Positions 2,858-58,162 of a stretch of 64,000 nt of DNA are shown here, piece by piece (within the stretch, counting starts at the first letter, position 1; every line of letters begins with the position of its first letter). The translations under genes and the position numbers were made by a program. The notes beneath the pieces were generated by a model. The model was not told the DNA's origin and did not search any database. It saw only the letters and a list, made by a program, of their open reading frames with translations. Source of the DNA: Phosphitispora fastidiosa (GTDB lineage: Bacteria; Bacillota; Thermincolia; Thermincolales; UBA2595); the NCBI RefSeq assembly GCF_019008365.1, contig NZ_JAHHUL010000004.1:124001-188000 (forward strand), given 5' to 3'.

Positions 2858-2859
2858 AT

Positions 2860-4848
2860 TTACTGTTTCCCCCTTGCTTGGGCTCTTAATTCAATAAGCA
2901 GGTCCCTCAGCTGTGCCGCTTTCTCAAATTCGAGATGCTTGGCCGCTTCCCGCATGTCTTTCTCCAGCCCGGCGATAAACTTATTCATATCGCGGCGTGA
3001 CATTTTCTCTGTCCTGGGACCGGCTGTCCGGTAAACCGCTTCCGCCTCAGCCACCCTGGTAGCTTCTATGACATCCCGTACCGCCTTCTTAATGGTCTGT
3101 GGCGTGATATGGTGTTTTTTGTTATGCTCCATCTGTATCTGGCGGCGGCGGTTGGTCTCATTGAGGGCCTTGGCCATGGAATCTGTGATTTTATCACCAT
3201 ACATGATCACCTGGCCTCCGGCATTCCTCGCCGCCCGGCCGATGGTCTGGATCAGGGAGCGCTCTGACCTCAGGAACCCCTCCTTGTCGGCATCAAGAAT
3301 AGTTACCAGAGATACCTCCGGAATATCCAAGCCCTCCCGGAGCAGGTTAATTCCCACCAAGACATCAAAAATACCCAGGCGCAGTTCCCTGATGATTTCC
3401 ATCCGCTCCAGTGTTTTGATATCTGAATGCAGGTATCTTACCTTGATTCCAGTTTCCTTGAGATAATCTGTCAGGTCTTCTGCCATTTTCTTGGTCAGGG
3501 TTGTTACCAGTACCCGCTCACCCTTTTCCACCCGAATCCTGACCTCATCGAGAAGGTCATCAATCTGGCCTTTGACCGGCCTGACATGAATCTCGGGGTC
3601 CAGAAGCCCGGTAGGTCTGATAATCTGTTCGACAACCTGCCGGCTGTGCTCCTGCTCATATGCCCCCGGAGTTGCCGAAGTATAGATAATCTGACTCATA
3701 TGTTCCTCAAACTCCCCAAACCTCAGGGGTCTGTTGTCCAGGGCTGATGGCAGCCGGAACCCGTGCTCAATGAGAGCGCTCTTTCGCGAACGGTCACCTT
3801 CATACATGCCCCGGACCTGAGGCAGGGTCACATGTGATTCATCAACAATAATCAGGTAATCCTCAGGGAAATAGTCCATCAGGGTATAGGGGGGTTCCCC
3901 CTGGTTCCTCCCGGTGATGTGCCGCGAATAGTTTTCTATTCCGGAACAGTAACCCATTTCCCGCATCATTTCGATATCAAAATTTGTCCTCTGTTCCAGG
4001 CGCTGCGCTTCCAGGAGTTTTCCCTGCTCCCTAAGTTCAGCCAGCCGCCATTCCAGCTCTTGCTCTATATTGGCGACAGCCCGGTCCAGCTTTTCCTTTG
4101 AAGTGGCGAAGTGGCTGGCAGGGAAAACAGAAACATGGCTCCTTTCTCCCAGTACCTCTCCCGTGAGGGTGTCAATTTCCATTATCCGCTCAACCTCATC
4201 GCCAAAGAAATCCACCCTGATGGCCTGTTCACCATGGGAAGCCGGAAATATTTCCACAACATCCCCTCTTACCCTGAAAGTCCCCCGGATAAAATTCATA
4301 TCATTCCTGCTGTACTGAATATCCACCAATTTCCGCAGCATGGCATCCCTGCCGATTTCCGCGCCCTTACGCAAAGAAAGGACCAAGTCACGGTATTCTG
4401 TGGGGTCACCCAGGCCGTAAATACAGGATACACTGGCCACAATGATAACATCACGGCGCTCAAACAGGGCAGCTGTGGCCGAGTGCCTCAGCTTGTCTAT
4501 CTCCTCATTAATGGAAGCATCTTTTTCGATATACGTATCAGTCTGCGGGATATAAGCCTCCGGCTGGTAATAGTCATAATAGCTCACAAAGTATTCCACC
4601 GCATTGTCAGGGAAAAACTCCTTGAACTCCCCGCACAACTGGGCAGCCAGTGTCTTGTTATGGGCTATGACAAGGGTGGGCTTCTTTACCTGTGCAATCA
4701 CATTAGCCATGGTAAAGGTCTTGCCGGAACCGGTAACTCCCAGCAGAGTCTGGTGTTTCAGACCTTCTCCCAATCCCCTGACCAGCTTTTCTATAGCCAG
4801 CGGCTGATCCCCGGCAGGTCCGTATTCTGATTGCAGTTTAAAGTCCAT
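2860..4848 (-). CDS. uvrB: UvrB, excinuclease ABC subunit B
   Basis: This 662-residue protein is the DNA-loading helicase subunit that verifies damage and recruits UvrC. Walker A GVTGSGKT lies near residue 40, the damage-probing hairpin motif [12 protein letters not shown] follows near 95, and a UVR domain ([20 protein letters not shown]) near residue 620 should contact UvrC. The frame is open for 35 more codons upstream, but the ATG at 4848 is preceded by GGAGGAG at good spacing and gives the usual UvrB N-terminus [16 protein letters not shown]. It is the first gene of a uvrB-uvrA operon. Confidence 0.97.
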
Positions 4849-12233: not shown

Positions 12234-12565
12234 CTACCCAACTACATTTTATACACACTTAAATATATGTACTATACTACAATAAATTTACCGTAAAGGA
12301 TTACATACGTTTCTGTTTGTTCCATATATTTGTTAAAACATATGCCTGCTTTTTAACTATTATAACCGGAGGGGTCCGGTTTTGCAACATGAAGCCCGCC
12401 CTTCTCCCCCTGCTTCCCGGACCCATCATCTCCCTCAACCCCTCTTATTCAAGCAAAAATTTCAGCTATATCAGGCGCTGGACAAGGATAACTCATTCAT
12501 CAAAAGCAACCACCACGTATTAAAACACGAACGAGTTTCAACTCCGTGACGTATGGGGGAACGTC
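12234..12565. other. Chromosome/prophage junction region
   Basis: This 330-bp stretch has no convincing gene. It contains a perfect hairpin AACCGGA-GGGG-TCCGGTT (12364-12381) followed by TTTGC, and AT-rich ctpA upstream sequence near 12,250-12,290. The left attachment site should lie here, because the gene on one side is a conserved chromosomal protease and the genes on the other form a continuous phage block. The right copy is outside the window, so the core cannot be identified. Confidence 0.5.
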
Positions 12566-12886
12566 TTAGACGCCCAAAAAGTTACCGATAGCTGCCAGGG
12601 CGCCCCAAATTTGAGCCATGGCAATACTTAAGCAGGAAAACGCAGCCACTATCTTGATCAGCTTTGAAATGTTCCCGCCGCCTAACACGTTAGATATCTG
12701 CATGGCAATGTAGGCAACTGTGGCAATCAACATTAATTGCAAAATAGCTTCCCCGGGGCCCCCGACAAAAGTTTTTTGCATTACCATTCGCAGCCCTTTA
12801 TCCTTGACGGCTGCACAAGCATAATCAGGTTGGCACAATAACAAAAAAATAGGTAAAGGTAATGAAGCATACTTAAGAAACCTCAT
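12566..12886 (-). CDS. Small membrane protein, VirB2/TrbC pilin-like topology
   Basis: A 106-residue protein with a signal-peptide-like N-terminus (hydrophobic residues about 6-22, ending ACAAV) and two further hydrophobic segments (about 47-65 and 78-103) separated by a short GGGN-containing loop. That arrangement resembles VirB2/TrbC-type pilins, but sequence identity is not certain; a phage or integrative-element membrane subunit is equally possible. The ATG overlaps the upstream stop as ATGA and follows GGAGGTG, so it is translationally coupled to the replication-relaxation-like gene. Confidence 0.65.
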   Translation of the reverse strand: MRFLKYASLPLPIFLLLCQPDYACAAVKDKGLRMVMQKTFVGGPGEAILQLMLIATVAYIAMQISNVLGGGNISKLIKIVAAFSCLSIAMAQIWGALAAIGNFLGV

Positions 12887-13539
12887 TTTAAACACCTCCG
12901 CAATTCTTCAAGGAGTTTGACGCTGAACCTTAACCCGTTCGCATTGTCCTCCTGAATTTTGCGGAGGATTTTTTCTTTTCGGTTCTCTGTCTGACATACT
13001 ATTAATACCGGAGGGAACTTATCTGTAAGCGTAACCCACCACCTCTTGTAACCACGGTTTATCTGTTCAAACAGCTTGTTGTATAATCTGACCTTGTTGA
13101 AATCATTTCTATCACTATGATTTTCCCCCTCAATAAACATGAATCGAAACCTCTCAGTAACAGTGTTTTTTATGGCGCAGAACCCGTCGGGCCGGAGGAA
13201 AGAGTAATCCGGTTCATACTTAAAACAGTGGGTTTTTTCCCAACACGCTTTTTGAAGTTCGATATAAACACGAACCCAATTCAATAATATCCGGTGCTGC
13301 CAGTGTGCGGTTTTTTCACCATATACATATCCTTCGTTGCTGGCCCATCGCTCTACCATGCCTTTACGGTGGAGCTTCAACATGCGTTCCTGGGCCTTGC
13401 GTTTGGCAACCTCATAAGTTTTAAACTCGGTTAACGTAAAGTGCAAGAAAATGATCTGCTGTATATTAAGTGTTTTGTAATCCTCAAGAGTAGCTAATAT
13501 GGAATTATCCCGGCAGTAGCCTCTTTGCACAAGGTTCAA
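12883..13539 (-). CDS. Replication-relaxation family-like protein
   Basis: A 218-residue protein with an N-terminal winged-helix-like half (residues about 10-75, charged helices) and a C-terminal alpha/beta half containing YSFLRPDGFCAIKN and MFIEGENHSDRNDFNKV, the layout of the Replic_Relax family found on Gram-positive plasmids, integrative elements and phages. The start is TTG, 5 bases after AGGAGGTGG. It overlaps the FtsK-like gene by 35 bp. A role in plasmid-like replication or transfer is inference from the family name and from its FtsK partner. Confidence 0.65.
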   Translation of the reverse strand: MNLVQRGYCRDNSILATLEDYKTLNIQQIIFLHFTLTEFKTYEVAKRKAQERMLKLHRKGMVERWASNEGYVYGEKTAHWQHRILLNWVRVYIELQKACWEKTHCFKYEPDYSFLRPDGFCAIKNTVTERFRFMFIEGENHSDRNDFNKVRLYNKLFEQINRGYKRWWVTLTDKFPPVLIVCQTENRKEKILRKIQEDNANGLRFSVKLLEELRRCLK

Positions 13540-14629
13540 TGTCCCACCTCCTAGCCTCCATATTATTTACTATTTTCTTTGCTTTTTCTATGGGAAGGTA
13601 CATGGTTTGAACCTCACTCAGCTTCATTCCAAACTTGAAAATTCCGCGGCCCTTTATTGCCGGCAACCAGGCAGCCATACTGTTCTCTTCACCCAGGACC
13701 ATCCTCGAATCTATCTCTGACGGCACAAGATAACAGAGCCTTGCTGAATAAAGCATCCTGGCATCACCAGCGGCCTCACCAAAAGCCTTTACGGAAGGTC
13801 TTTGAGTGCCAGTCACGATGTGCAATCCAACAGCCCTTGACATTCTAAGTAAACGGTGGAGCATGACATGAGTATCTTTATCGCGGATCTCTGCTAATTC
13901 ATCAATCACAATAATAATAAGCGGCATGTCACCTCCCTCATACTGCTGAATCTTAACGCAGCCCGCCTTTTTGAGAATCTTAACCCGCCTATCATGTTCT
14001 TTGTTCAATCCCTCGAGTAAATTGTAAATTTGTTCATCTTCTTCGGCCAGCACAACATGTTTGGACAAGTATCCAAAATCTAATTGTTTCGGGTCAATGA
14101 TAAATATCCGAGCGAAAGGCAATAGTGACAATATTGCCTGGTGCAGGAAGTTTGATTTTCCGAAACCGCTCTCCCCGGCAACTAACATGTGTGGCGCATC
14201 GGCTAAGTCTAACCATTCAACCCCTTTGGGGGTATAACCTATTGGTATCGGCAATAACATTTTGGGCGGTTCCAAGGCTTTATAGGGTATCTTAGAGGGC
14301 AAGTTGTTAACTTGAATATCCATCTGTAAAACACCATCAAATGTCATAACTATAAACGAATTTACCGCATCAGAGAAATAGTTTTTCTTCCTGAGCACTG
14401 ACTGAAAACTAATCCCAGGCGGGAGCCTTACTACCAAATGCCAGCCATATTCTGTTTTCTTTCGGTTAATTATTACCGGCTTCCGGTGATCCTTTGTAAT
14501 AAAACCAAGATTATCAAATGTTTCAAGAACCTTAATTGGAATATCATGGTCCTTAAACGTGGGAACATATCTCCACCAATGATATTTCAGCATTTTTAGA
14601 TCAAGGACAGGTTCCTGCTTTTTGGGCAA
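13505..14629 (-). CDS. FtsK/SpoIIIE-type DNA translocase ATPase
   Basis: A 374-residue P-loop ATPase. After a 125-residue N-terminal region comes GESGFGKSNFLHQA (Walker A, near residue 155) and MPLIIIVIDELAEI (Walker B, near 235), then GTQRPSVKAFGEAAGDAR, as in FtsK/SpoIIIE and the TcpA-type coupling ATPases of Gram-positive conjugative elements. It has no membrane segments, so it would work as a soluble motor or with a partner. The start is TTG at 14629, seven bases after AAAGGAGG; the open frame further upstream crosses a strong terminator and is not coding. Confidence 0.85.
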   Translation of the reverse strand: MPKKQEPVLDLKMLKYHWWRYVPTFKDHDIPIKVLETFDNLGFITKDHRKPVIINRKKTEYGWHLVVRLPPGISFQSVLRKKNYFSDAVNSFIVMTFDGVLQMDIQVNNLPSKIPYKALEPPKMLLPIPIGYTPKGVEWLDLADAPHMLVAGESGFGKSNFLHQAILSLLPFARIFIIDPKQLDFGYLSKHVVLAEEDEQIYNLLEGLNKEHDRRVKILKKAGCVKIQQYEGGDMPLIIIVIDELAEIRDKDTHVMLHRLLRMSRAVGLHIVTGTQRPSVKAFGEAAGDARMLYSARLCYLVPSEIDSRMVLGEENSMAAWLPAIKGRGIFKFGMKLSEVQTMYLPIEKAKKIVNNMEARRWDIEPCAKRLLPG

Positions 14630-14692
14630 ACAACCACCTCCTTTCCATGCTTGCTTATTTTTTGTGAGTATGTTGGTTACTAAAAATATATA

Positions 14693-14706
14693 TTGCGAAC
14701 GTTCGC
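14693..14706. promoter_or_regulatory. Perfect 14-bp palindrome, candidate operator
   Basis: TGCGAACGTTCGCA is fully self-complementary and is followed on the minus strand by the AT-rich TATATATTTTT, 64 bases before the FtsK-like start. It is not a LexA box, since that needs four bases between GAAC and GTTC. Confidence 0.5.
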
Positions 14707-14730
14707 AGGATAGACCGTGAAAATTTTGAC

Positions 14731-14760
14731 AAAAAAAGACCCTGGAACAGTTCCAGGGTC
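14731..14760 (-). terminator. Strong terminator upstream of the FtsK-like gene
   Basis: An 11-bp stem (GACCCTGGAAC with its exact complement) is followed on the minus strand by seven T residues. It sits about 100 bases before the FtsK-like start and may end the short RNA described at 14731-14822. Confidence 0.85.
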
Positions 14761-14822
14761 TTAACAAAACCACCAAAACTCTGTGACGGTGGCCAGATGC
14801 CTGCGCATCAAGCGAAACACAC
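14731..14822 (-). ncRNA. Possible short RNA or attenuated leader
   Basis: On the minus strand TTGTAA (14852-14857), a 17-base spacer and TATACC (14829-14834) form a plausible promoter, and the transcript would end about 90 bases later at the terminator 14731-14760. It holds a 15-codon reading frame (MRRHLATVTEFWWFC) that stops at the terminator, but with no ribosome site. Either an independent small RNA or an attenuated leader of the FtsK-like gene is possible. Confidence 0.3.
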
Positions 14823-14870
14823 CAGACAGGTATAAACACCTTCGGAGAAAATTACAAGGCCCTTACAGGG

Positions 14871-17251: not shown

Positions 17252-17291
17252 AGAACAGTCCAGAACTTAATCCTGGACTGTTCTTTTTTTA
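17252..17291 (+). terminator. Terminator of the small plus-strand gene
   Basis: AGAACAGTCCAG and its exact complement form a 12-bp stem with a 9-base loop, followed by seven T residues. The T tract overlaps the stop codon of the convergent giant gene. Confidence 0.9.
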
Positions 17292-20200
17292 TAATGGTCC
17301 ACCTTTAGTCCTTAGGGCATTGGTTATTGCCTTCTGAACCTTGTAATCATAGTACTTTAACATGTCCTGCACCTGCACATCACTTAATTGTGCTTCAAAA
17401 GGAACATCAGGTATTGGGCTCTGATAAATATATCCCGCTGCCAATTTTTGCAAATAACTCATCCTAAGGTTGAATATCTTTTTCTGTTCCGGTGAAATGT
17501 CAGCGCGTTTTGCAATATCCCTTTGGGCGGCTCGCATATCCGACATTTCCCTGGCAAACATATTGCGAACCGGAATAGAGAGAATTAACCGGACATCTGA
17601 TTCTTTCAGCTTTTTACGAAGGTTTTCATTAACATATGTTGCGGTATCTTCTGCAGATAAGCCTCTTGCCCGGGCCTGCTCTTCCCATTGCTTTTGCCAT
17701 AACCCAGACGATTTATAGATCTGTTCTGCTCTTGCCTTGTCTTCGTAGAACTTATCAACTATCCGGCTACCACCCTCACCGGGACCGTAAATCAATGAAC
17801 CAATAACCGGCCAGTATTCAACCCCTGGCCTATCGTCACCCTTCAGCCACTTAAGCGGGTTTAACGGATTGCTCAAAATGTTGGTCACGGTCTTACCAAT
17901 GCCGCCGAATGAGTTTTTCATAAAGTAGTCAATCATTCTTGGGCTTGGTCCTTTATCAGTAAACACCGCAACAGCCTTCGCCATATTAATGGCAAATTTG
18001 GATGTGCCGGTACTAAACCTGTCCTGTGGCAGCAAGTTTTGTTCCCGTTCCGGTTCAATCGGATTCCCGAAGGAGTCTTTGCCTGAATAAAGGCTAATTA
18101 TTGTATCTATCAACATAGATGTCATGGGAACCCCAAAAGATGTTTTAACAGCTGATTTAAAATCGGTCAACGGTTTCCTTTTGTTGGGTTCATCAGTCAT
18201 GGCCCAATCCAGGAACCTTTCCAGCATATTTGCCGGCAGCGCATATTCGTACGGCTTCGCCAGCGCAATCCGGTAATCTTTGGTCCCCGGTATCGGGAAC
18301 CACCAGTACCGGTCCCGTGACTCCGAAGGCATGTCCTTGTACTTATCATCATCACTTGACAGTGCCCACGCCAGCAGGGTCAATGGCACCATATATATTG
18401 CCATTCTCATTAAAGTAGTATATGGTTTATCCTTGACTTGGCGGCTGAACCGGTAAATACCTTGAATACTGCCCTGCATAAACTGAACCGTCCTGGCATA
18501 CTTCCTAAAACCTTCATGGATACCGTGAAGCCCAAAGTTAACCAGGATTTCACGCGAAGCATAAGCGGCTTCAAGGAGAGCCTTTTCCACATCCGGGGCA
18601 AGTTCATCCGAAACTTCTCCTGCCATAAACTCTTCATAGGACACTCCCAATGGTTTAAGCTCTCTTTTGAGTACAGCTTCAAACTCAGCCAGCCTTGGCA
18701 TTTCTTCAAGAATTCGGAGAGCTTCCAAAGGCGAAGTAACCACCCGAACCAGTGCCCCGGTTGCTGTCCGTTTCCACCCCGGTACTGGAGTTGCCATCAG
18801 ACCATCAGTTACCGATGCCCTCAATGCCCCGTTAATAACTTCCTGTGGTGCAGAACCATAGCCACCGGATTGAACATACATATCCATGACTTCTTGGTTC
18901 ATCCCAATAGCCGTACCAACGCCTTTGATAAAATCAGCTATTAAGGACCGTTCGCCCATGCCGGCCTTAGACTGTACTTTAGACACAATAACATCACGCA
19001 TGATAGCGTTTGTTACATACCGGACGTTGGCCAGGGCACCAAACCGGCCTATCTGGGTCAGGTAAGCAAGAGTTTTGGCAACAATATCAACGGTTATCGG
19101 TTTCATGGAAAGAGCCGCCCGGTAAATGTCCGGAGCCACCCTCATATAAACATGCCGCCCGCCGTGACGTGCCATAAGGATGGTTTCCCGCTGACCAATG
19201 TCGCGCAGACCGCCAGGCATGAACATCCTGATAACCCGTTCTTCATCCTCAATATTTATTTCTCCATCAAAATGTCTGGCCATATCCTCTACGGACACAG
19301 AAACACTTTTAATGGGTGCCTGGATGAAGTCACCGAACAAACCCATGTTAGGCTGCCTAATGGACCCTTCTATGGCCTGCATAATCTTTTCGATTTCTAC
19401 CGCCAGGACTGTATCGTTGAGCCTGGTAATGGAGGCCTCAATAAAATTCATTGTCTGCCCTTCATGGCCCTTAAACCGGCGCACACCCTCACCGGCTGCC
19501 CGCCTATTATTTCCCGAACCATGATACTCCTGCTCACCGACATGATACAAGGGCAGGTAAATATTTGAACCGGCCCGGATATGTTCCGCATCTTCTTCGC
19601 TTATCACTTCACCACGGACCAGCAGGCGCAGGTTAATCTCGCTGAGGATCTCAGCATATTCTTCAATGAGTTCAACCATTTCCGGATACCTTTCGCGGGC
19701 CAAATCAACCACCGTATCAAAATAAGCCTTTGTTTTTGGCAGCTCAAATTGCTTGGCGCCCTCCGATTCTTCCATCACATTGTACCGTTCCTGGTATCTC
19801 ATGGCATGGTATATCCAGTCCATCAATTGAACACCGTGAGGGATTTGCGCCGCCTCTTCGACTATCTCCTGGAGTGAACGTTTCCCAGGAAGAAGAAATC
19901 TCCCGGCTTCATCCCTGGCAGAGCCCGAGAACAGATTAGCAGCTTTTTCCCTGGCTGAACCTGAAACTGCCGCCAACTTAGCTGGGTCAAGTCCTTCATA
20001 TCCCTGCTCGACAGCTGCCCGGTACAGGTCTTTTAGGGGTATAGTAAAGTCTGCTAACTGGAACTGTAGTTTCTTAAACCATGGGATACGGTATTCCTCG
20101 CCCACATTAACCTTAACACGTTCGCCCGGTTTAGCTATAAGATTGGCCATTTGAGCCAGGGGATCTCCTTCAAGGTCAAGCTCTGCAATAGCAAGGATAG

Positions 20201-23200
20201 CATCAAACTGTCCACCAATTTCAGGGTTATTGTCCAGAAATTCATCAAACATTTCAGAAGTAACCGGCGCCATTTCGCGGGCCGTTTTGTTATCAGAGAA
20301 CCACAGCATCAGATATTCGGCAAGCCCCTCCTGAGTTTTCTTGCCTTCCGGAATATCGCCAGGGTACATCTCTTCAGCAATGTCCCACATCTCAGACTTT
20401 TTGGGTTTAAAATTGGCTGCATCCAGAAGGATAAAAGCAATACCGTGACCATGTTCATGGCCCATAACTCGCCAGTTTTCAGTTTTCTGTTTTTTGATTT
20501 TACCGGTTTTGCTATATTTACTGAACGAACCTTCGGTCCCTCTGATATGCCTGCCGGAACGAAGTACCGTATTAAGGAGTTGAGATAGTTTTTCGCCCAT
20601 TTCACGGGCCGCTTTAGGCGAAATATTCTCTGCCCTGGCCGTTAATTCGCTGGGATCAGTAAGCTCTTTTTCGATGGTAGGTGCAGGTTTTTTAGCCTTT
20701 TTCTTCTTTTTAACTTTATGTTTCTTGGCGAAGGCAAATTCTTCATCCTGTAGGTCTTCTTCAATAATCTCTGGTGATTTAGTAGACATTTGGGCCTTTG
20801 TTACGACATACATTCCTGCCTTCTTCTCAATTGTCGCGTCTTCCGGAAACGCTTCCCGGATTTCGTTTTCATAGTCAGCAAAATTCCTGTTTTCCTGCCA
20901 TGTAGATGTACCATCAGCAAATTCTAATTGTGCACCCTTGCCAGACCCATTCCCTTTGTAAACCGTTATTATGGCTTTGCTTCCTGGTTTTAACAGAGAA
21001 TACAGGAAGTCAATTACACTCTTACGTTCTTCAGCAGTAGGAATAACATTTAATACATTATTAAGAGCTACACCGTCAGCACCTTTGTTTTTTTCAATTC
21101 TGGCAAGAACTGATTCATTGTGCTCCGTATCCATGGCATAAGGATCATAAACAAGGTTTTCAATTCCATGTTGAGCCATGAATTGAGTTCCTTTTTCATA
21201 TTTTCCTCCGCCGACATCTGCCACAAGCATTCCCTTTGTAAATATTTTCATTGCAACTGCCTTTTTTAATCCTGCAGCCACCTGGTTTAAAGAAGTTTTT
21301 TGTGGAGAATGAACAAGAGAATATTCATTGGAGGAAGAATTAATGTTTTTGAGTACAGAGTCCGCTTTTTTTCGCACAGATTTGCTTGGCAGCGAAAACT
21401 CTTCATTCACACCTGGCGAAACCATGTCTACCACGGGCCTGTACTTAATTACCTTCTCAATAACCTGGGCTGACATTGCCCCCGTAGGAACGAAAAACCT
21501 AGTTTCCCAATCAATCCGTTCAATAAAAATCCCTTCATTTTTAAGCTGTCCCATATGGGGATAAAGATCCCTGCCAATTAACTCAATTCGGTTTTCTCCT
21601 GAAACCCTGCGCCGTACCATTCTCCACTCGTTAGACAGGTAAATAGTGTAATTCTCTTTAAGTATCTTGTCAGACAACTCAGTCGGGCTTAAGGTTTGTT
21701 TGGTCCTGTCAGCGCCGAGTTTTTTTAGTGTCAGGTCAATAGCCTTTTCAGGAACGATACGTCCCAGTAGCATCCGGCCATCTTCTGTTTTGACACGAAT
21801 TACCCTAACGTGACCTGTCGGCAGCCTATCCCAGATAGGAAGCAGTGCGCCGCTTATCAGGTTAACTTTTTCAACACGAAACTCCGAAACCTTTCCCAGG
21901 GCTTCGTTCCATGCTGTTTCGGCTTCTGATTCAGGGATTTCTCCCCAGTTGCCTTTTTCAAAATCAGCCTTAGATATGTTGTGGCTGCTTGATTTAACCT
22001 GACCTTGAACCTGATAGATTTCTACCACGCTTCCATTTGACAGTGTTCTGTGACCATATCGCTTAACCGCATAAACCCGCTCACTTTTGGTGTTCCTGTA
22101 AAAACCCTTCAGCTTTGGTAATCGTGAAGCATTTTCAAAAGAAACCTTTTTGTTTTTGTGATGTGCCTCCAGTGCAAAATATTTAGTTTCAGCTCCGGAC
22201 GATTCATCAATAAACACGGACTTCTCTTCAGATACAACAACCTTGTCTGCCCGGTAATTCTCTAAACCAACATCAAGGGTCCCATCTGCAATGGCTTTTT
22301 CTACTTTAGCATCAAGTCTTTTTATGAATTCTTCAAAGATTTTGTTTTGCAGTGTAGATTCAAGAGCCAGAATGCGGTTAAGGAATTTGGTAATGTCTCT
22401 CAAATCAGGGTTTTCGTTACTGACGTTTCTATTTTCGTCAAGCATGTTACTAAGGCCCATCTTCGACAGCAACTCTTTAGCGGTAATCCCTTCTATTTGT
22501 CCACCGGCCAAATTCTCATAGAACTGCTGCAGAGCATCCCTGGCTAAATCACTTTCAAGGTTATCCTTGGCACTAAAAAGCCCCTGGCTGCCGGTTTGCC
22601 TCTGTCCCTTTGTCAATGCCCCCAACTGGTCTAATCGCCTGGCAATAGATGAAATAAAACGTTTCTGCCCTTTAAGATTAGTTGTAACCAATACATAATG
22701 AGGGGCATTGGCTTGGTTGGTCCGGTGAGTCCTTCCAAACCCCTGGACAGCGTTATCCGCTCTCCAGCCAGCCTGAATCAAATAGTGAACCCTGCGCCGC
22801 TGATTTTTCTCTTTAAGGGAAGCATGGTAACTGCGCCCAGTTCCACCGGCATCAGAGAACACCAGTATCTTTTTCTTATCGTCAAGAAAAGCCTGAGCGT
22901 CAGCGGAAGCATGTTTTGGTGTTCTTGATTCAAGTTTTGCCTTCATGCGCCCATCATCCGACTCACGAACAACCCTGCGGGTACGTCCGGTAATTTCGGC
23001 AACCATTTCAGTCCCAAACTCATTCAAAATAATCTCCAGCGGGCCTTCCGGCACTTTTAACGCACCCAGTTTTGACAGAAGTTCTTCCTTCATTTCCATT
23101 GCTTCCTGGTTTACAACCGGATTCCCATGACTATCAACCACCGGCCTAGAACGAATATTGCCGTTATCATCTTCATACTCTTCATATTGTTGAATAGGAA

Positions 23201-26200
23201 AACTCTTGTCAAGATACTGCATCAACATATCACGGGGAGTGAGATCTAAATCTTCCAAACTGTCTTCTTCGTTCATTTTGGCAATGGCACGATTCTGAGC
23301 TGCCTCATTAGTGTTAACCAATTGCATTACAACAGCGTTTCCGTTTGCCAAGTCTTTTTTTACCTGCTCTACCACTGAAGGCATCTGGACGGAAGTTAGT
23401 ACCTGATTAAAGAATCTCTGCTGAGCCACCCAAAACTGACCTATGGCCCTGCCCTTGGAGTAACCGTCTTTGCCCTGACCGGTTTCCTCTAATGCTTTAT
23501 TAACGTTCTGCAGGACAATCTGCCATGCTTTAGCCATTTCATCATATATTTCCGTCTGTTCAGGGGTAAGATTATGTTCAAGCGTACCATAGGTTACTCC
23601 GTCATAGCTCAGGTTACGGGCAATATAAGCGCCCATGGCCTTCATATCGCGGGCAACCAGCTCCATTGCCGCTAACCCACCGGCCTGAACCTTGTCGATG
23701 AAATCAAGCTTGTTGGCAAACGGAGTGCCTTCCCCCCAGAGACCCAACCGGTCAGCATAAGCTAAATTAGAAACCTCAGTGGCGCCGGTTGCTGAAGCAT
23801 ATACAATCCTGGCATCAGGTAAGCGTTTTTGCAATTCTATGCCGGCAAGTGCCCTGGTAGAAGGTTTTTTTGCCCCACGTTTTCTTTTTTGGGTTATGCT
23901 GTTCTGCATTTGATGAGCTTCGTCGAAAACAATAACCCCATCGAAATCCTTACCCAACCAGTTTATTACCTGGTCAATCCTTGCAGATTTACCTTCCTTA
24001 ACAATCAGTTCACCGGTTTTAGAAGAACTTAGGCCTTGACCAAGAGTATCATAAGTTGTAAATAAAACCCCGTCCTTTTGTTTGACTGGGGTGCCCATTT
24101 TAACATTGCCTAGCTCAAACAACAGTTTCTTGTCGCCGCCAGTAGCCTCAAAGTGTTCAAGAGAATCATTAAAAAGTGGAGCGTTCTTACTTATCCAGAC
24201 AGCTTTCTTGCGTCCCTGTCTGATATTATCCAAGATAATACCGGAAATTTCCCGGCCCTTACCAACTCCCGTACCGTCCCCAATAAAGAAACCCCTCCTT
24301 GTTCCGTCTGGAAGGGTTTGTTGATGAGCTTGCCCGGCATACACAACAGATTCTAACTGTGCTATTGACAACTTACCTTCACTAACTGTTTCCTTGGGTA
24401 AGTTAGGTGTATATGTAGGTGTTGGAGGTTCTACGGCAGCCATAGCTGCGCTTTGGGCAAGTGCGCCGGGGTGTTGTTTTGCGCCCGGAATCTTTAGTTT
24501 TTGAGGCATATAATCAGTAAAAACAGCATCAGACAATTCCTGATCGGTTTGTTGTACTGCCTCTGACTCTGACTCAACCTTAATCTCCGTTTTTGCGGTT
24601 TTGGCAGGTTTTACTGTTCCGCTTCCCGGCTCCTTGGCTGTTTCTCCTGGAGTGCGTACATCAGTCTTTCCGTCAGGTACTCCGCTGCTTCCAGTGGTGT
24701 CTTCCTGGCCAGTTTCTTTGGATTGACCCACGTTCCCTGCTGGTTCCCCTGGTCCGGGCCCTCCCTGGTCAGAAGGTTCATTGCCTGTTCCGGGTTCCCG
24801 TGGTACAGGAGTTTTTCCACTTGTTGTCTCAGGTCGTGGTGTTCGTTCCTGTTTTCCGGGTTGTTGGGTATTATCTTCCCGCTCTGCAGCCCCCAACTTA
24901 TCAGTTGGTACAGGTACAGTAGGCTCGGGTCCGGTTTCTGGCCCGCCCTGTTCAGTAGGTTTTTCGCTAGCAGGTTTACCGGCTGCCTGTTGAGTCGGTC
25001 TATTCTCTGATGTAATCCGGTCATTCTTAATCGCCTCCAATAAAGGAAGTGCATCTTCCAACGTATCTACACTATTAACAACTGTGCTGTTAATTCCTTT
25101 AGGCAATGGACCTGTTTTGTCAATAACCACCAATTGAACGCCGAAATTAGTGCCATACTTGCTATAATTCTTCCCATTTATGCCTATGTTTGCACGGATA
25201 TTGTAAGTTTCCCGTAGTTTATTCCACCAGCCCTTGAAGTTTGCGGCATTGTCAGACATCCCCTGTCCAACAATCGCCACCAGTCTGCCTCCTGGAGCCA
25301 GCTTCTTTAATGCCTGTTCCATGTGCATGATTGCATTTTTAGTATCATTCTTACTTCTTATTCTTGCGGTCGATGAAAACGGTGGATTCATTATAATAAC
25401 GGTAGGTTTGATATCCTTTGGTAAGACATTGTTTAATTGTTCGGCATTCTCAGTGAATACCTGATCAAATCCCATTTCTTTTAGCACTTCAGCGCGTCTG
25501 GGAGAAAACTCGTTAACGATGACCTCTCTTGCTCCGGCCGATTTTGCAAATACCGCTAACCCACCAATTCCGGCACTGGGCTCCAACACAATATCGTTAT
25601 GGGAAATGTTTGCTACCCATGCGGCAATATACGCTATATTGGGTGGAGTAGAAAATTGCTGCAACCTGTCCTGTTCTTCTGTCCTCTTGGTTTGAGTGGG
25701 GATTGCCTCCAATATTTCCTGCCTGATAGATTCTAAGATGCGTTTAGCCTGCTCAGCACTAACCATCGGGCCAACACTCTTTTTATGTTCCAACAGGTAG
25801 AGGTTAACTCCCAACTCCAAAGCGTCATAAGCATCTTTGGAAGTGTATTTCTTTTCTGCCTGAGTACCCTCAAAGAACCGATCGGCAATCTTAAATAGCT
25901 CAGCGGAAGTGAATTTTTGGCCTTGTACCAGCATATCCTTAACAGCAACAGCCACTTTTCTGCTTGGAGTAGCCCGTTCTTCTGGCTTTGGTTCCTCAGT
26001 AACAGGTTCTTCTTGCTTTGATTGTACCTCATTTTCCCCAGTTTTGGCAACTTCTTCTTGTCTGTCAATTTTTCCCTCTTCTTTTTGTGGCTGCACCTTC
26101 GCATCTGCCTTGCCAGCCTGATAAAACAATTGTGTTAGAAAATGTGGAAATTGTGAATCTATTTCCTGGTCAAAAGGAACATCAATTGTCCTGATGCCCT

Positions 26201-28289
26201 CTTTGCCAGCCTGATACCATTTTTCAAAAAACTGCCTATATGCCTGCACATATGGGTCTTCTGGCTTGTTTAAGTCAGCCATAACATGTTCGTTATTGGC
26301 CCATTTTTTAAAGACATTGTTACCGGTTCTGCCGTAAACAAGAAGTTTTTTGGGTTCCAGTTGTTTTGGTTTTTCTCCGTCAACAGGCTCCTTTGCAGGT
26401 TCTACTGTAGACTCCTTGCCAGATTCCGTTGAAGCCTCTGTTAAAGATTCTTTTGCAGGTTCTGTTGAAATCTCCGCTAATGATTCCGGTTCGGTCTTTG
26501 CCTGTTCCTCTGCGGAGCTAATAGATGGCTGTTGCATAGGTTCAACAGGCTGCTCTACCGGCTGTACAGGAGGCTCTGCTGGCGGTTCTACTGGTTGATC
26601 TGTTGGTTGTTCTACCGGCTGTGGTACAGGCTGCTGTGGTTCAATAGGTTGCTGTACCGGAGTTTCCCCTGGTTGCTGTATGGACTGCCCCGCAGGTTGC
26701 ACCGGCTGAATAGGCTCCGGTTGCTCAGCCGGTTGAGCCTGTTCGCTCTTTTGTTTTTCGACCGCCTCTTTTTCCACATCTGCAACGTCCTGGATTACTT
26801 CTTGCATTGAGTCGCCGACAACCTTATCGCCTTCCTCGGTCCCGGCAAACTCATCGAACACCTGTTTAACTGCTTCTTCTACAGGTGTGCCGGCATCAAC
26901 TTTTTCCTGAACAGCAGTTTCCAGAGACTTTCTGGCTTCTTTTGAAGCCTTATTGTATGCTCTGGTCTGCATTTCATGCTGCAAGGCACCAATAATACCG
27001 GGGCCACCGCCAAGGACCAACCCCTGTGCAATAGATTCCTGCATAGCCGGGTCAAAATTAACTTCGTCACCCAAGGAACTGCGCTGGATTACTTCCTGTG
27101 CGCCTTCTTCCAGTCCTTCAGATGCTCCTGCCATACCAACCCTGCCCGCACCTACAGCTGCTCTTCCCAACTTAGAATCTGCTGCCGCACCAAGCATTCC
27201 CCCTAACCACTTAGGGGCCGGACTAAACATGGCAGCCAATTCCGGCACGTTGGTAACGGATAACAGGGCAGCGTTTTTCAGAAAAGCATCATCAGCAGCC
27301 TGCATTGCCTCTTCTTCCGATAGGCCCCTGTTTTTTGCCTCGGTGTAAACTCCCCCGGCCTCCAGTGCAGCTTCTAACGGTACACCGCTCGAGAGCCCTC
27401 CCAATGTCTTTAATAATTTTGTTCCCCAGTTCCCCAGTGAACCCAGTTTGCCCCATCCGGCAGCTCCGGCTACAACCCCCCCGGCCTCGGCACCCAAAAT
27501 TGTTGGGATAAGGAGGGATGCCATTAGGGGAACGTTTCTCATGACGTTTCTGGTATAAAAACGCGGGTCAGCAAGAGTTTTCCATCCCTCAAACTTAATA
27601 GGCGGCGACCAATCTGGACTAGTATATAAATCTGCGGTATATTCGCCAAACTCACGCATTCCTTTACCGGTTTCACTCAAGCCCTCGATGCCAAACTTGT
27701 CACCAGCCCATTCCATACCGCCACCATAAGACATGGGAATGTTTGAATACATCCCTGCAACAAGTGACTTAAAGGCATCGGTATTGCCAATTGTCACAAG
27801 AGGTTTTTCAATAAAATCTGGCACTGTTTCACCTTGCAGGGACTTATGCAATGCTGTCGGGTTCTCCAGTGTTGGAATCAAAGGGTCTTGGGCATGAACA
27901 ACATCAGAAACCGTTGGAACAGTATTCCCCAGGAAGTCAGGCATAACAGGAGAAGATGGCTTAAATGGCACCGTGCCCTGTGGGACAGAACCTTCTCCGG
28001 GCAATGCCTCAGGTGGAAGGGCAGGCGTTACTGCTTTCTTTTTGAAATAATCAAACCCTCCTGCCGGAACCAAAACAGGGTTGCCGTTTGCGTCCTGAGT
28101 CCACCCGCCTATTTCTTCACTGGGTATGCTGCCAGGGATATTGCCCGGTACGCCCCCTGGAACACCACCGGAAACACCAAAAGCGCTCCCACTTGGAGTA
28201 GGAACGCTTCCACTGTTCTTTTTAAAATAATCAAAACCACCTTCCGGCACCAATATGTCTCTTCCGTATTCATCCTTGATCCAGGGCAT
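17289..28289 (-). CDS. Giant polyvalent virion protein: methylases, helicase, zincin
   Basis: This 3,666-residue protein occupies 11 kb. In order: a duplicated 24-residue motif ending GGFDYFKK (residues about 3-26 and 62-86); Gly/Ala-rich hydrophobic stretches (about 255-430); a Pro/Gln/Val-rich linker (about 520-600); a class I DNA methylase with EPSAGIGG and NPPF near 968; a second low-complexity linker (about 1110-1230); a Strawberry-notch-like SF2 helicase with GTGVGKGREIS near 1340, FDEAHQMQN near 1456 and GFGRTHRTNQA near 1851; a second methyltransferase with VADVGGGKYEKG near 2358; a Lys-rich linker; a zincin with HEHGH near 2611 and EGLAEY near 2655; helical polyvalent-associated regions; and one membrane segment near 3297. 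This matches the phage polyvalent-protein theme (P1 DarB is a known methylase-helicase example) in which an ejected protein shields incoming DNA. Ejection is inferred from its place after the virion genes. Confidence 0.85.
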   Translation of the reverse strand: MPWIKDEYGRDILVPEGGFDYFKKNSGSVPTPSGSAFGVSGGVPGGVPGNIPGSIPSEEIGGWTQDANGNPVLVPAGGFDYFKKKAVTPALPPEALPGEGSVPQGTVPFKPSSPVMPDFLGNTVPTVSDVVHAQDPLIPTLENPTALHKSLQGETVPDFIEKPLVTIGNTDAFKSLVAGMYSNIPMSYGGGMEWAGDKFGIEGLSETGKGMREFGEYTADLYTSPDWSPPIKFEGWKTLADPRFYTRNVMRNVPLMASLLIPTILGAEAGGVVAGAAGWGKLGSLGNWGTKLLKTLGGLSSGVPLEAALEAGGVYTEAKNRGLSEEEAMQAADDAFLKNAALLSVTNVPELAAMFSPAPKWLGGMLGAAADSKLGRAAVGAGRVGMAGASEGLEEGAQEVIQRSSLGDEVNFDPAMQESIAQGLVLGGGPGIIGALQHEMQTRAYNKASKEARKSLETAVQEKVDAGTPVEEAVKQVFDEFAGTEEGDKVVGDSMQEVIQDVADVEKEAVEKQKSEQAQPAEQPEPIQPVQPAGQSIQQPGETPVQQPIEPQQPVPQPVEQPTDQPVEPPAEPPVQPVEQPVEPMQQPSISSAEEQAKTEPESLAEISTEPAKESLTEASTESGKESTVEPAKEPVDGEKPKQLEPKKLLVYGRTGNNVFKKWANNEHVMADLNKPEDPYVQAYRQFFEKWYQAGKEGIRTIDVPFDQEIDSQFPHFLTQLFYQAGKADAKVQPQKEEGKIDRQEEVAKTGENEVQSKQEEPVTEEPKPEERATPSRKVAVAVKDMLVQGQKFTSAELFKIADRFFEGTQAEKKYTSKDAYDALELGVNLYLLEHKKSVGPMVSAEQAKRILESIRQEILEAIPTQTKRTEEQDRLQQFSTPPNIAYIAAWVANISHNDIVLEPSAGIGGLAVFAKSAGAREVIVNEFSPRRAEVLKEMGFDQVFTENAEQLNNVLPKDIKPTVIIMNPPFSSTARIRSKNDTKNAIMHMEQALKKLAPGGRLVAIVGQGMSDNAANFKGWWNKLRETYNIRANIGINGKNYSKYGTNFGVQLVVIDKTGPLPKGINSTVVNSVDTLEDALPLLEAIKNDRITSENRPTQQAAGKPASEKPTEQGGPETGPEPTVPVPTDKLGAAEREDNTQQPGKQERTPRPETTSGKTPVPREPGTGNEPSDQGGPGPGEPAGNVGQSKETGQEDTTGSSGVPDGKTDVRTPGETAKEPGSGTVKPAKTAKTEIKVESESEAVQQTDQELSDAVFTDYMPQKLKIPGAKQHPGALAQSAAMAAVEPPTPTYTPNLPKETVSEGKLSIAQLESVVYAGQAHQQTLPDGTRRGFFIGDGTGVGKGREISGIILDNIRQGRKKAVWISKNAPLFNDSLEHFEATGGDKKLLFELGNVKMGTPVKQKDGVLFTTYDTLGQGLSSSKTGELIVKEGKSARIDQVINWLGKDFDGVIVFDEAHQMQNSITQKRKRGAKKPSTRALAGIELQKRLPDARIVYASATGATEVSNLAYADRLGLWGEGTPFANKLDFIDKVQAGGLAAMELVARDMKAMGAYIARNLSYDGVTYGTLEHNLTPEQTEIYDEMAKAWQIVLQNVNKALEETGQGKDGYSKGRAIGQFWVAQQRFFNQVLTSVQMPSVVEQVKKDLANGNAVVMQLVNTNEAAQNRAIAKMNEEDSLEDLDLTPRDMLMQYLDKSFPIQQYEEYEDDNGNIRSRPVVDSHGNPVVNQEAMEMKEELLSKLGALKVPEGPLEIILNEFGTEMVAEITGRTRRVVRESDDGRMKAKLESRTPKHASADAQAFLDDKKKILVFSDAGGTGRSYHASLKEKNQRRRVHYLIQAGWRADNAVQGFGRTHRTNQANAPHYVLVTTNLKGQKRFISSIARRLDQLGALTKGQRQTGSQGLFSAKDNLESDLARDALQQFYENLAGGQIEGITAKELLSKMGLSNMLDENRNVSNENPDLRDITKFLNRILALESTLQNKIFEEFIKRLDAKVEKAIADGTLDVGLENYRADKVVVSEEKSVFIDESSGAETKYFALEAHHKNKKVSFENASRLPKLKGFYRNTKSERVYAVKRYGHRTLSNGSVVEIYQVQGQVKSSSHNISKADFEKGNWGEIPESEAETAWNEALGKVSEFRVEKVNLISGALLPIWDRLPTGHVRVIRVKTEDGRMLLGRIVPEKAIDLTLKKLGADRTKQTLSPTELSDKILKENYTIYLSNEWRMVRRRVSGENRIELIGRDLYPHMGQLKNEGIFIERIDWETRFFVPTGAMSAQVIEKVIKYRPVVDMVSPGVNEEFSLPSKSVRKKADSVLKNINSSSNEYSLVHSPQKTSLNQVAAGLKKAVAMKIFTKGMLVADVGGGKYEKGTQFMAQHGIENLVYDPYAMDTEHNESVLARIEKNKGADGVALNNVLNVIPTAEERKSVIDFLYSLLKPGSKAIITVYKGNGSGKGAQLEFADGTSTWQENRNFADYENEIREAFPEDATIEKKAGMYVVTKAQMSTKSPEIIEEDLQDEEFAFAKKHKVKKKKKAKKPAPTIEKELTDPSELTARAENISPKAAREMGEKLSQLLNTVLRSGRHIRGTEGSFSKYSKTGKIKKQKTENWRVMGHEHGHGIAFILLDAANFKPKKSEMWDIAEEMYPGDIPEGKKTQEGLAEYLMLWFSDNKTAREMAPVTSEMFDEFLDNNPEIGGQFDAILAIAELDLEGDPLAQMANLIAKPGERVKVNVGEEYRIPWFKKLQFQLADFTIPLKDLYRAAVEQGYEGLDPAKLAAVSGSAREKAANLFSGSARDEAGRFLLPGKRSLQEIVEEAAQIPHGVQLMDWIYHAMRYQERYNVMEESEGAKQFELPKTKAYFDTVVDLARERYPEMVELIEEYAEILSEINLRLLVRGEVISEEDAEHIRAGSNIYLPLYHVGEQEYHGSGNNRRAAGEGVRRFKGHEGQTMNFIEASITRLNDTVLAVEIEKIMQAIEGSIRQPNMGLFGDFIQAPIKSVSVSVEDMARHFDGEINIEDEERVIRMFMPGGLRDIGQRETILMARHGGRHVYMRVAPDIYRAALSMKPITVDIVAKTLAYLTQIGRFGALANVRYVTNAIMRDVIVSKVQSKAGMGERSLIADFIKGVGTAIGMNQEVMDMYVQSGGYGSAPQEVINGALRASVTDGLMATPVPGWKRTATGALVRVVTSPLEALRILEEMPRLAEFEAVLKRELKPLGVSYEEFMAGEVSDELAPDVEKALLEAAYASREILVNFGLHGIHEGFRKYARTVQFMQGSIQGIYRFSRQVKDKPYTTLMRMAIYMVPLTLLAWALSSDDDKYKDMPSESRDRYWWFPIPGTKDYRIALAKPYEYALPANMLERFLDWAMTDEPNKRKPLTDFKSAVKTSFGVPMTSMLIDTIISLYSGKDSFGNPIEPEREQNLLPQDRFSTGTSKFAINMAKAVAVFTDKGPSPRMIDYFMKNSFGGIGKTVTNILSNPLNPLKWLKGDDRPGVEYWPVIGSLIYGPGEGGSRIVDKFYEDKARAEQIYKSSGLWQKQWEEQARARGLSAEDTATYVNENLRKKLKESDVRLILSIPVRNMFAREMSDMRAAQRDIAKRADISPEQKKIFNLRMSYLQKLAAGYIYQSPIPDVPFEAQLSDVQVQDMLKYYDYKVQKAITNALRTKGGPL

Positions 28290-31384: not shown

Positions 31385-32233
31385 TTATTGGAGAGGCAGG
31401 CCCATGGCACCCCTTATTTGGTCAGCCCAAACATGAGCCGCTTTTGCACCGTCAATATCTTTGTGCTTACTCTTTTCATCCCAGACCTTTTTGCATCTGT
31501 TTATTTCTTTAACCCCTTCTTCTTTATCTATCTTGTACCATTCAAGCCTTTCTGTGCATGTCAATGGATATTCTTTTATTAATTCGGTTTTTGTTAGTAT
31601 CCAAACCTTTTCCTCAGGTCCTGGCCGTGAATAACATGGTTTAAATACAACCCTTCTTGCTAACTCTGACCCAAAAACACTTCTAAAGTCTTCAGCAAAT
31701 AATTCTTCCGGATTATTATAATATTCATCATATCCGTCACGGTGTTCCTTTTTGTCTGGTTGGCGAATTTTATTAACATAATCGCGTAAATCCTTATCAG
31801 ATAAATACCTAAACCTAACTAGATGCCCTATGCCATGAGAAACAAAGTAACGATTCAGGGAAGCATTATAAGGGATTTCGATGCCGTTCACGGTGATTCT
31901 TACATTAGGTCTTTGAAAAGCAAAAAGATACAAAATACCGTCTCGGGTAGCAAAATCACCAAGGGAGCCGTACTTTTTATGGGTGAATCTTTTGTGGACC
32001 ACATTAATTGGTATTTGTGTTTCTTTTAAGAGTGGAAAGCTATTTTCAAGAAAAGACAGTTCATATACCACATCAGCAACAGAGAACATTTCTTCATCAC
32101 TTTTTATGGGATGTGTACTGCCATAACCCAAAGAAATGTCTCGAAATTCTGTTATGGTTACTTCGGCTAAAGCGGTAGAAGAATTTAGCAACATAACAAG
32201 TACTAGCAATATAGAAATTAAATATTTACGCAT
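31385..32233 (-). CDS. Secreted zincin-like protein with degenerate active site
   Basis: A 282-residue exported protein. A clear signal peptide (KYLISILLVLVMLLNSSTALA) is followed by a domain with VSHGIGHLVRF near residue 135 and NPEELFAEDFRSVFG about 45 residues later. That spacing and the EELFAEDF helix are those of anthrax-lethal-factor/Pro-Pro endopeptidase-type metalloproteases (HExxH plus downstream Glu), but the catalytic Glu is replaced by Gly (HGIGH). It may bind a metal or peptide without cutting. The ATG at 32233 follows GAGGTG. It lies downstream of a spike gene and could be a lysogenic-conversion factor. Confidence 0.7.
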   Translation of the reverse strand: MRKYLISILLVLVMLLNSSTALAEVTITEFRDISLGYGSTHPIKSDEEMFSVADVVYELSFLENSFPLLKETQIPINVVHKRFTHKKYGSLGDFATRDGILYLFAFQRPNVRITVNGIEIPYNASLNRYFVSHGIGHLVRFRYLSDKDLRDYVNKIRQPDKKEHRDGYDEYYNNPEELFAEDFRSVFGSELARRVVFKPCYSRPGPEEKVWILTKTELIKEYPLTCTERLEWYKIDKEEGVKEINRCKKVWDEKSKHKDIDGAKAAHVWADQIRGAMGLPLQ

Positions 32234-32285
32234 TATTAAACACCTCACGCTCTAATTTAACCACTTATTGCCTTTGTTGTCAACA

Positions 32286-36607: not shown

Positions 36608-37186
36608 ATGAAACGCATATTAAGTTTTCTGTATAAAAAAATCGTCTTGTTTTGGTTAAAATTCAGAAACCGTAATTTGAAAATACTAGGTTCTGTTCAT
36701 ATCAGTGGATATCCTGAAATATCGATTGGCAAAGACTCTAAATTAATCATTGGCGATAATGTTACATTAAATTCTAGCAACCATGATTATCACGTCAACA
36801 TGTTTGCCCCCGTTAAATTACTCGCAAAGCGTAAAGGTGCTACAATAATTGTCGGGGCAAACACAAGGATTCACGGCAGTTGCATCCACGCCTTTGAAAA
36901 AATCTCAATCGGTAAAAATTGCTTGATAGCCGCGAACTGCCAGATATTTGATGAAAGCGGACACAGTATTTCATTTGATGATACCACCAACAGACTTAAA
37001 ACCAGAGGAAAAACCAAACCAATAGTGATAAGGGATAATGTTTGGATTGGAACCGGATGTATAATCCTTCCCGGAGTAACCATTAAAGAAGGTAGCGTAA
37101 TAGCCGCTGGAAGTGTGGTTACAAAAGATGTGCCAGCCTACTGTTTAGCCGGGGGAAATCCCGCCAAGATTATACGGCAACAATAA
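36608..37186 (+). CDS. Hexapeptide-repeat O-acyltransferase, lysogenic-conversion candidate
   Basis: A 192-residue left-handed beta-helix acyltransferase. Imperfect hexapeptides run through residues 45-180 ([49 protein letters not shown]), and the end carries [16 protein letters not shown], as in CoA-dependent sugar acetyltransferases. It is plus-strand inside a minus-strand virion operon, with its own extended -10 promoter and ribosome site AAAGGTAGG. It abuts the convergent spike gene with no gap. It probably modifies the host's surface polysaccharide in the lysogen, blocking adsorption by related phages (inference). Confidence 0.85.
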
Positions 37187-57487: not shown

Positions 57488-58162
57488 CTATCTGTTTGCC
57501 TTGAAAAACGCTTTTGCGAATCCCGGCGGGGTAATCGCTCTTATCTCGGCCCGTGTTAATTTTAAGTGCTTGTATTCCGGTGGACATATCGGGGATACCA
57601 TTCTTCTACCGTTTCTACTGCCTCTTGGATATCGCACTGATAGGTTTTCGGGTTTTTCTTTAATTATCGGTTTTGGAGGATTAAAATATCCCCATAAATC
57701 CGTAGGCTTAATTCCTTCATCTCCGAATTGCCATTGCTCAAAAGTAAAAGCAGGTTTCCCTAAAAACTGTCTCAGTAATCCAACAGGGTTTTCCATGGCC
57801 CAAAACTTTAACTTACTGTGATTATAGAATCTACAGTGCCATATAATTTTAAGGCAAGCCTCCACCAATTTCATTGCGCTTTTTAAATCCCTTGGCTTAT
57901 TTCCTTTGGCTAAGGAAAATTCTGTACAAGGTGGAGCGGCTAAGATTCCATAAACATCATCATACAACACACAAAGTGTGTCTCGATAGTGCACGTCCTG
58001 CCGTATGAATTTCATGCCATAGGCATCGAATTCAACTTCAGTAACATCCCATTCCGGCAGCGTAACCACCCTCACATCATACCCTGCTTCCGCATATGGC
58101 CGGCTCCAACTGCCCGTACCGCCACACAGATCTAAAACAATTTTCTTTTCAATCTTGTTCAC
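57488..58162 (-). CDS. C5-cytosine-methyltransferase-like protein
   Basis: A 224-residue protein with a motif I-like VLDLCGGTGSWSRPYAEAGY, a PPC motif (GILAAPPCTEFSLAKG, near residue 77) and an ENP motif (FWAMENPVGLL), the order of Dcm-type enzymes (ENV is usual). The target-recognition region is short. It may methylate phage DNA against restriction. It starts 3 bases after the primase gene stop, so it is co-expressed. Confidence 0.8.
   Translation of the reverse strand: MNKIEKKIVLDLCGGTGSWSRPYAEAGYDVRVVTLPEWDVTEVEFDAYGMKFIRQDVHYRDTLCVLYDDVYGILAAPPCTEFSLAKGNKPRDLKSAMKLVEACLKIIWHCRFYNHSKLKFWAMENPVGLLRQFLGKPAFTFEQWQFGDEGIKPTDLWGYFNPPKPIIKEKPENLSVRYPRGSRNGRRMVSPICPPEYKHLKLTRAEIRAITPPGFAKAFFKANR

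Follow-up and report, generated by a model that had tools for sequence, protein, structure and literature searches.

Introduction

Polyvalent proteins of phages and conjugative elements, which probably enter the cell with the phage DNA, combine unrelated enzyme domains in one chain, among them dyads of a methyltransferase (MTase) and a superfamily 2 (SF2) ATPase, zincins and LPD domains, and their genes have virion genes as neighbors (Iyer et al. 2017, PMC5512222). An MTase joined to an SF2 translocase is a known anti-restriction arrangement, and DarB of phage P1, a very large virion protein in which a DNA MTase is followed by an SF2 ATPase, protects DNA in cis, the restriction concerned being of type I (PMC5512222). 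Iyer et al. also proposed processing by the zincins of such proteins, P1 DdrB being cleaved and the N4 virion polymerase uncleaved (PMC5512222). A larger protein is gp69 of the Bcep22-like Burkholderia phage JC1, which is annotated as DarB-like, has 4,515 residues, occupies 22.1% of its genome and was detected in virions by mass spectrometry (PMC9144972). Here, we describe a 3,666-residue protein, P0001, encoded in the part of a prophage that lies in a 64,000-nucleotide stretch of the Phosphitispora fastidiosa genome (contig NZ_JAHHUL010000004.1; hereafter the window), where an earlier sequence-only reading had noted the gene and proposed functions for it.

P0001 is a polyvalent protein, and the class is already known (PMC5512222). 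The analysis adds a dissection into fixed chassis and replaceable cargo and one new pattern, that of duplicated N-terminal motifs. The best explanation of the protein as a whole, which we hold to be moderately probable, is that it is packaged in the virion, that its first MTase (MT1) and Strawberry-notch helicase (SNH) act against restriction, that its second MTase (MT2) is a cassette and that its zincin cuts its own chain.

Results

A single intact frame encodes domains of several disparate kinds

The gene lies on the minus strand, which the sequence-only reading did not give, and its claimed length and position are real. It has an ATG start preceded by a purine-rich ribosome-binding site (AAGAGGGGG) and zero internal stops over 3,666 residues; the chance of such a stop-free run at 46% GC is about 1e-88. 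The domain order read from the letters is also correct: a γ-class DNA MTase, a Strawberry-notch SF2 ATPase, a class-I MTase, an HExxH zincin and a C-terminal module that contains LPD38 (Table 1). DNA MTase, SF2 ATPase, second MTase and zincin thus share one chain, LPD38 scores 93.6 bits against a Pfam cut-off of 27, and the gene stands downstream of terminase, portal, capsid, head closure and tail-type genes and upstream of an endolysin gene. Among the proteins compared, a set that does not extend to the domain tables and supplement of Iyer et al. 2017, no other has the order MT1-SNH-MT2-zincin-LPD38. As a distinguishing trait the order is right for P0001, but it varies among relatives, in which MT2 is missing, an ADP-ribosyltransferase (ART)-like segment is inserted or the whole dyad is swapped.

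The gene had been said to take up more than 20% of the visible prophage, which holds for the part in the window (11.0 of ~51.7 kb) and drops to ~17% of the whole ~63.3-kb prophage. Neither its size nor its genome share is exceptional, given JC1 gp69, whose gene likewise follows virion genes and precedes lysis genes, a likeness of annotation and position (PMC9144972).

To measure selection, we computed the ratio of nonsynonymous to synonymous substitution (dN/dS) between P0001 and P0002 (L005), a 3,726-residue protein from the viral contig IMGVR_UViG_3300007351_000366 that matches it with 90% identity across MT1-SNH and 87% across the zincin and C-terminal module. The ratio is 0.043 in MT1, 0.106 and 0.029 in the N and C lobes of the helicase, 0.085 in the zincin and 0.05-0.075 in parts of the C-terminal module, values that are approximate because dS reaches at least 1 in several segments. 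In the linker after MT1 it is 0.74, with a low dS of 0.175. We conclude that the enzyme domains with intact catalytic motifs are under strong purifying selection.

Zincin and C-terminal module are inherited together

HEHGH is the sole HExxH in P0001, where 0.05 would be expected by chance. Although this region has no Pfam match, a family profile built in this analysis recognizes it. In an alignment of 23 zincin sequences, most of them only 13-22% identical to the copy in the window, H2611, E2612, H2615, E2654, G2655 and A2657 are invariant. No catalytic residue is lost, and HExxH and EGxA are kept throughout. The AlphaFold model of the block has mostly 85-97 pLDDT and places the motif and the downstream glutamate on helices, the glutamate on the second, the arrangement of zincin metallopeptidases. 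When compared with the PDB, the profile reaches zincins of the ATLF/Pro-Pro endopeptidase group (M34-like), with marginal E values of 0.009-0.04.

A profile built on the last ~820 positions of the chain (the C-module) matches about 50 distinct proteins, encoded on viral contigs or in phages and prophages, and in almost every case the match stops no more than ~60 residues short of the C-terminus. We evaluated the zincin in the 50 proteins with an intact region. It lies directly before the C-module (gap of 0-36 residues) in 24 of them, all of which keep HExxH; another six carry a different HExxH or HExxxH upstream. In P0004 (L007/L009), a 2,826-residue protein from a Thermincola metagenome-assembled genome, the payload has been replaced, and the zincin and C-module are still 53% identical, compared with 26% for the N-terminal region. 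These sequence comparisons indicate that inheritance couples the zincin to the C-terminal module and not to the payload. Because it travels with the C-module, a role in self-processing or packaging is favored over cutting of a host protein, the function that had been suggested from the letters. A basic, variable linker precedes the zincin in P0001 (Table 1) as in P0002, P0004, L048 and L050; L049 lacks it.

LPD38 itself matches at residues 3314-3473 (E 2e-26, Pfam). A search of the C-module with Foldseek against the PDB gave no match at E ≤ 0.001 (best E 0.11), and a profile search gave nothing convincing. The idea that the module is a known ejection fold thus finds no support in the PDB, which is not proof of a new fold. 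The C-terminal membrane segment proposed earlier is borderline at best: residues 3293-3310 are hydrophobic but stay under 1.6, the usual cut-off on the Kyte-Doolittle scale, and the only window above it in P0001 is N-terminal, at residues 255-273.

A probable anti-restriction pair built from other families than those of DarB

PHROG DNA-methyltransferase profiles match MT1 at residues ~875-1060 (E 2.5e-15). STPP (880-883), EPSAGIGG (903-910) and NPPF (968-971) are intact, giving MT1 all the marks of a γ-class N6-adenine MTase: TP(P), the S-adenosylmethionine motif and NPP(Y/F). The helicase matches AAA_34 at residues 1272-1584 (E 2e-116) and Helicase_C_4, the Strawberry notch C-terminal domain, at 1751-2010 (E 3e-90; both Pfam), with helicase motifs I (GDGTGVGKG, 1337-1345), II (DEAH, 1456-1459) and VI (GFGRTHRTNQ, 1850-1859) intact, and is a Strawberry-notch SF2 ATPase by both domains and motifs. 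Residues 795-2287, which include the region behind the helicase, are 43% identical to P0003, a 4,919-residue protein with another C-terminus than P0001.

P0001 therefore has, like DarB, an MTase (residues 775-1080) followed by an SF2 ATPase (1261-2030). The families differ: DarB pairs an NVPF MTase with an SNF2 ATPase, whereas P0001 pairs an NPPF MTase with Strawberry-notch. A DarB-type profile matches L048, L050, L030 and L072 and does not match P0001, and searches of DarB with Pfam and the family profiles built here found no SNH, MT2, zincin or LPD38. The claimed difference from DarB thus holds, with the dyad of P0001 intact and its enzymatic parts distinct from those of DarB. L048, L050, L030 and L072 share the chassis of P0001 and carry a DarB-related NVPF-MTase/SNF2 pair on it. 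Judged from these sequences, the pairing of an MTase with an SF2 translocase recurs though its members come from different families.

MT2 and the payload are exchangeable

As an excised piece, MT2 matches Methyltransf_23 (Pfam, E 4e-4, below the curated cut-off), and its AlphaFold model has a class-I MTase fold (Foldseek E 3e-5; VIA-align Z ~11). MT2 filled the list of VIA-align matches to the exclusion of the zincin. Its sequence marks are ADVGGGKY, VYDPYA and LNNVLNVIP. It has no NPPY, DPPY or NVPF; LNNVLNVIP stands at the position of motif IV, likewise in three relatives. The sequence-only reading suggested that the protein might modify DNA, which is supported for MT1 by its DNA-MTase motifs and not for MT2, because this catalytic motif is missing there. 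Given the missing motif and the fold matches, MT2 probably has a substrate other than DNA bases.

MT2 is present in L048, L049 and L050 at 61-62% identity and missing from P0002 and P0004. It is an optional cassette, as close relatives vary in having it. With these carriers known, we rejected the idea that MT2 was recently inserted in this phage and in no other. In relatives MT2 is closer than its flanks (62% vs 38% for the zincin); comparisons with P0002 and P0004 and with the flanks favor neither gain nor loss.

The remaining relatives show the same exchange of parts. P0002 differs from P0001 in lacking MT2, in having HELAH for HEHGH and in carrying an ART-like segment at residues ~817-1031, before MT1. 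This segment has no Pfam match and shows an H-Y-D-like pattern by eye only; the ART profile built here includes the P0002 sequence and matches it by construction. The payload of P0004 has a different SF2/SNF2-type helicase and no MT1, MT2 or full SNH. In L048 and L050, MT2, zincin and C-module stand behind the DarB-like pair. In L049, one frame holds ART-PolyVal, which passes the Pfam cut-off, a helicase and ParB, and the next holds MT2, zincin and C-module. The two open reading frames (ORFs) overlap in different frames at L049:7407-7549, at the seam of payload and chassis, and we take the overlap to result from a frameshift or an indel in the assembly rather than from a split by design. As relatives swap MT1-SNH, MT2, the helicase and the C-terminus, the protein is built of exchangeable cassettes. 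Gp20 of Bacillus phage Page (Pagevirus) has, like P0001, the C-terminal module with LPD38; at 1,679 residues it contains no HExxH, nor any MTase or helicase by the profiles of this analysis. Homologs annotated as virion structural proteins are ARM81mr p69 and Epa33.

A duplicated motif at the N-terminus

P0001 begins with two near copies of a motif of ~20 residues with the pattern W..D..G...LVP.GGFDYF (Table 1). Within the six frames of the window both copies occur in this gene only, and they are kept in P0002. In a scan of 45 such proteins for duplications inside their first 80 residues, 18 had one at p ≤ 0.02, vs 8 of 196 N-termini of other large ORFs from the same loci (Fisher p 2e-9) and 5 of 180 internal windows (p 2e-10). 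Since the C-module makes some of the proteins relatives of one another, the counts are not wholly independent. The motifs are unrelated between lineages (KPWEEF, SLFDLYSNPLPGV, WVDVP, DWWKDAP...). In P1 DarB, a stretch of 30 residues at the N-terminus is enough to direct a reporter to the capsid (PMC9024508), and we propose, by analogy, that the duplicated motifs are candidate virion-targeting tags. On visual inspection, the start of DarB shows no comparable duplication.

Proposed function and alternatives

Virion delivery of P0001 is likely from its gene position and from precedent, and this part of the earlier proposal is supported. The duplicated N-terminal motif, the C-terminal LPD38 module or both would recruit the protein into the particle, and it would leave the particle with the DNA, as precedent suggests. 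The MT1-SNH pair would then move along the incoming duplex, methylating adenines and so shielding the DNA from host restriction as DarB does. The zincin, as part of the C-terminal chassis, would most likely cut its own chain in the linker before it, to judge from its position, and free the payload from the chassis at assembly or entry.

Several observations weigh against this account. No zincin-like motif lies within 700 residues upstream of the C-module in 20 of the 50 proteins. The payload before the C-module is not significantly longer in proteins with a zincin (p 0.12; p 0.05 when those with another HExxH or HExxxH are counted too), a comparison that does not establish payload release. The zincin-bearing N4 virion polymerase is packaged uncut (PMC5512222). 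The packaging role of the C-module rests on position and conservation, as it has no recognizable solved fold. Finally, targeting of DarB is carried by the 30 residues at its N-terminus, and DarB shows no LPD38.

A reading in which the zincin is a genuine effector and cuts a host protein after injection, a possibility listed by Iyer et al. (PMC5512222), draws on the profile's contact with ATLF/Pro-Pro endopeptidase zincins, but these matches are marginal and depend largely on the HExxH/ExxAE pattern, and the zincin is inherited with the C-module while the payload changes; we consider this unlikely. We rate as similarly improbable a zincin that is structural only, needed for packaging and not for cutting. 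This would fit N4, in which the region with the metallopeptidase is required for encapsidation of a protein packaged unprocessed (PMC5512222), but structure alone would not require a general base, and HExxH and EGxA are invariant in 23 sequences. The MT1-SNH pair could instead act on host DNA, for example in remodeling or transcription control, with stand-alone MTases providing anti-restriction. The prophage does hold two stand-alone DNA MTase genes by motif, whose products may modify phage DNA without P0001, but the known anti-restriction role of MTase-SF2 pairs and the cis protection by DarB (PMC5512222) leave this quite unlikely. Finally, the gene sits in a chromosome and might be a domesticated or decaying remnant lacking current function. 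We give this very little credence, as the 11-kb frame is intact, the enzyme domains are under purifying selection relative to a phage contig with 90% identity, and terminase, portal, capsid and serine recombinase genes are intact as well.

The self-cutting, anti-restriction account might extend to a shared cargo-delivery design, in which a short, tandemly duplicated N-terminal motif, specific to each lineage, docks the protein in the virion, and a constant C-terminal LPD38 chassis with its own zincin frees the swappable payload between the two (MTase-helicase dyads, MT2, ART or ParB). We advance this design only tentatively and think it rather doubtful; we found no virion proteomics of LPD38 relatives in the open-access literature. 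The map of replaceable cargo and fixed chassis shows where in the chain packaging, release and anti-restriction should be probed. Should the duplicated N-terminal motif prove to target the protein, short tags are predicted for loading many podovirus-like particles, as with DarB (PMC9024508).

Prophage setting and remaining features

Table 1. Positions in the window of the gene and of the segments of its product, with the evidence for each
Feature (residues of P0001)	Window position	Strand	Basis
Polyvalent protein gene (3,666 residues)	17289..28289	-	open frame, ATG, ribosome-binding site, Pfam/PHROG domains
Duplicated motif (3-22, WIKDEYGRDILVPEGGFDYF; 63-82, WTQDANGNPVLVPAGGFDYF)	28032..28289	-	self-similarity p 0.007; candidate virion-targeting signal
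Conserved N-terminal region (~120-450)	26940..27932	-	26-35% identity stretches to P0004, L030, L052, L088; hydropathy
P/Q/E-rich linker (500-650)	26340..26792	-	composition; 40% identity where rest is ~90%
MT1, γ-class N6-adenine-type DNA MTase (775-1080)	25050..25967	-	PHROG profiles, motifs, dN/dS 0.043
Relaxed linker (1080-1255)	24525..25052	-	dN/dS 0.74 vs P0002
Strawberry-notch SF2 ATPase (1261-2030)	22200..24509	-	AAA_34 and Helicase_C_4, motifs, dN/dS
Post-helicase region (2030-2295)	21405..22202	-	conserved together with SNH in P0003
MT2, second class-I MTase (2326-2497)	20799..21314	-	Methyltransf_23, AlphaFold fold, relatives
Basic/proline linker right before zincin, contains KKHKVKKKKKAKKPAP	20685..20750	-	candidate self-cleavage linker
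Zincin (2540-2736; HEHGH 2611-2615, EGLAE 2654-2658)	20082..20672	-	alignment, model, dN/dS 0.085
C-terminal module (2740-3658), including LPD38	17316..20072	-	profile, LPD38 Pfam

The prophage runs from ~12,275 to 11.6 kb past the end of the window. An 11-bp repeat (TACTACAATAA) marks both ends, at 12275 and at L042:11588 (window coordinate ~75588), and a large serine recombinase is encoded at the right end (L042:10065-11546). An inverted pair (AAAGGATTACATACG / CGTATGTAATCCTTT) lies close to the end repeats. The flanking genes, an S41 peptidase (CtpA-like) on one side and M23, FtsX and FtsE on the other, are the neighbors expected of each other without the phage.

Its genes are ordered terminase, portal, capsid, head closure, tail-type genes, the polyvalent gene, a small membrane protein, endolysin, FtsK and a replication-relaxation protein. 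The surroundings of Page gp20 match this order, with holin, endolysin, FtsK and replication-relaxation protein downstream; in the window the FtsK/SpoIIIE-like (13505-14839) and replication-relaxation-type (12883-13539) genes, on the minus strand, follow the lysis genes as in Page. We recognized no tail tape-measure gene among the prophage genes, which, with an Hc3-type closure protein, suggests a podovirus-like temperate phage.

The two putative stand-alone DNA MTases lie at 57488-58162 and 62756-63709 (minus strand), of C5-type APPC and TSPPYW type. Among the virion genes, 31385-32248 (minus strand) encodes a protein with a signal-peptide-like N-terminus that looks zincin-like by eye, with paired histidines and a later EELFAE and no canonical active-site motif. 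An acyltransferase-like gene at 36608-37186 (plus strand) runs opposite the late operon within the tail-type cluster and is moron-like.

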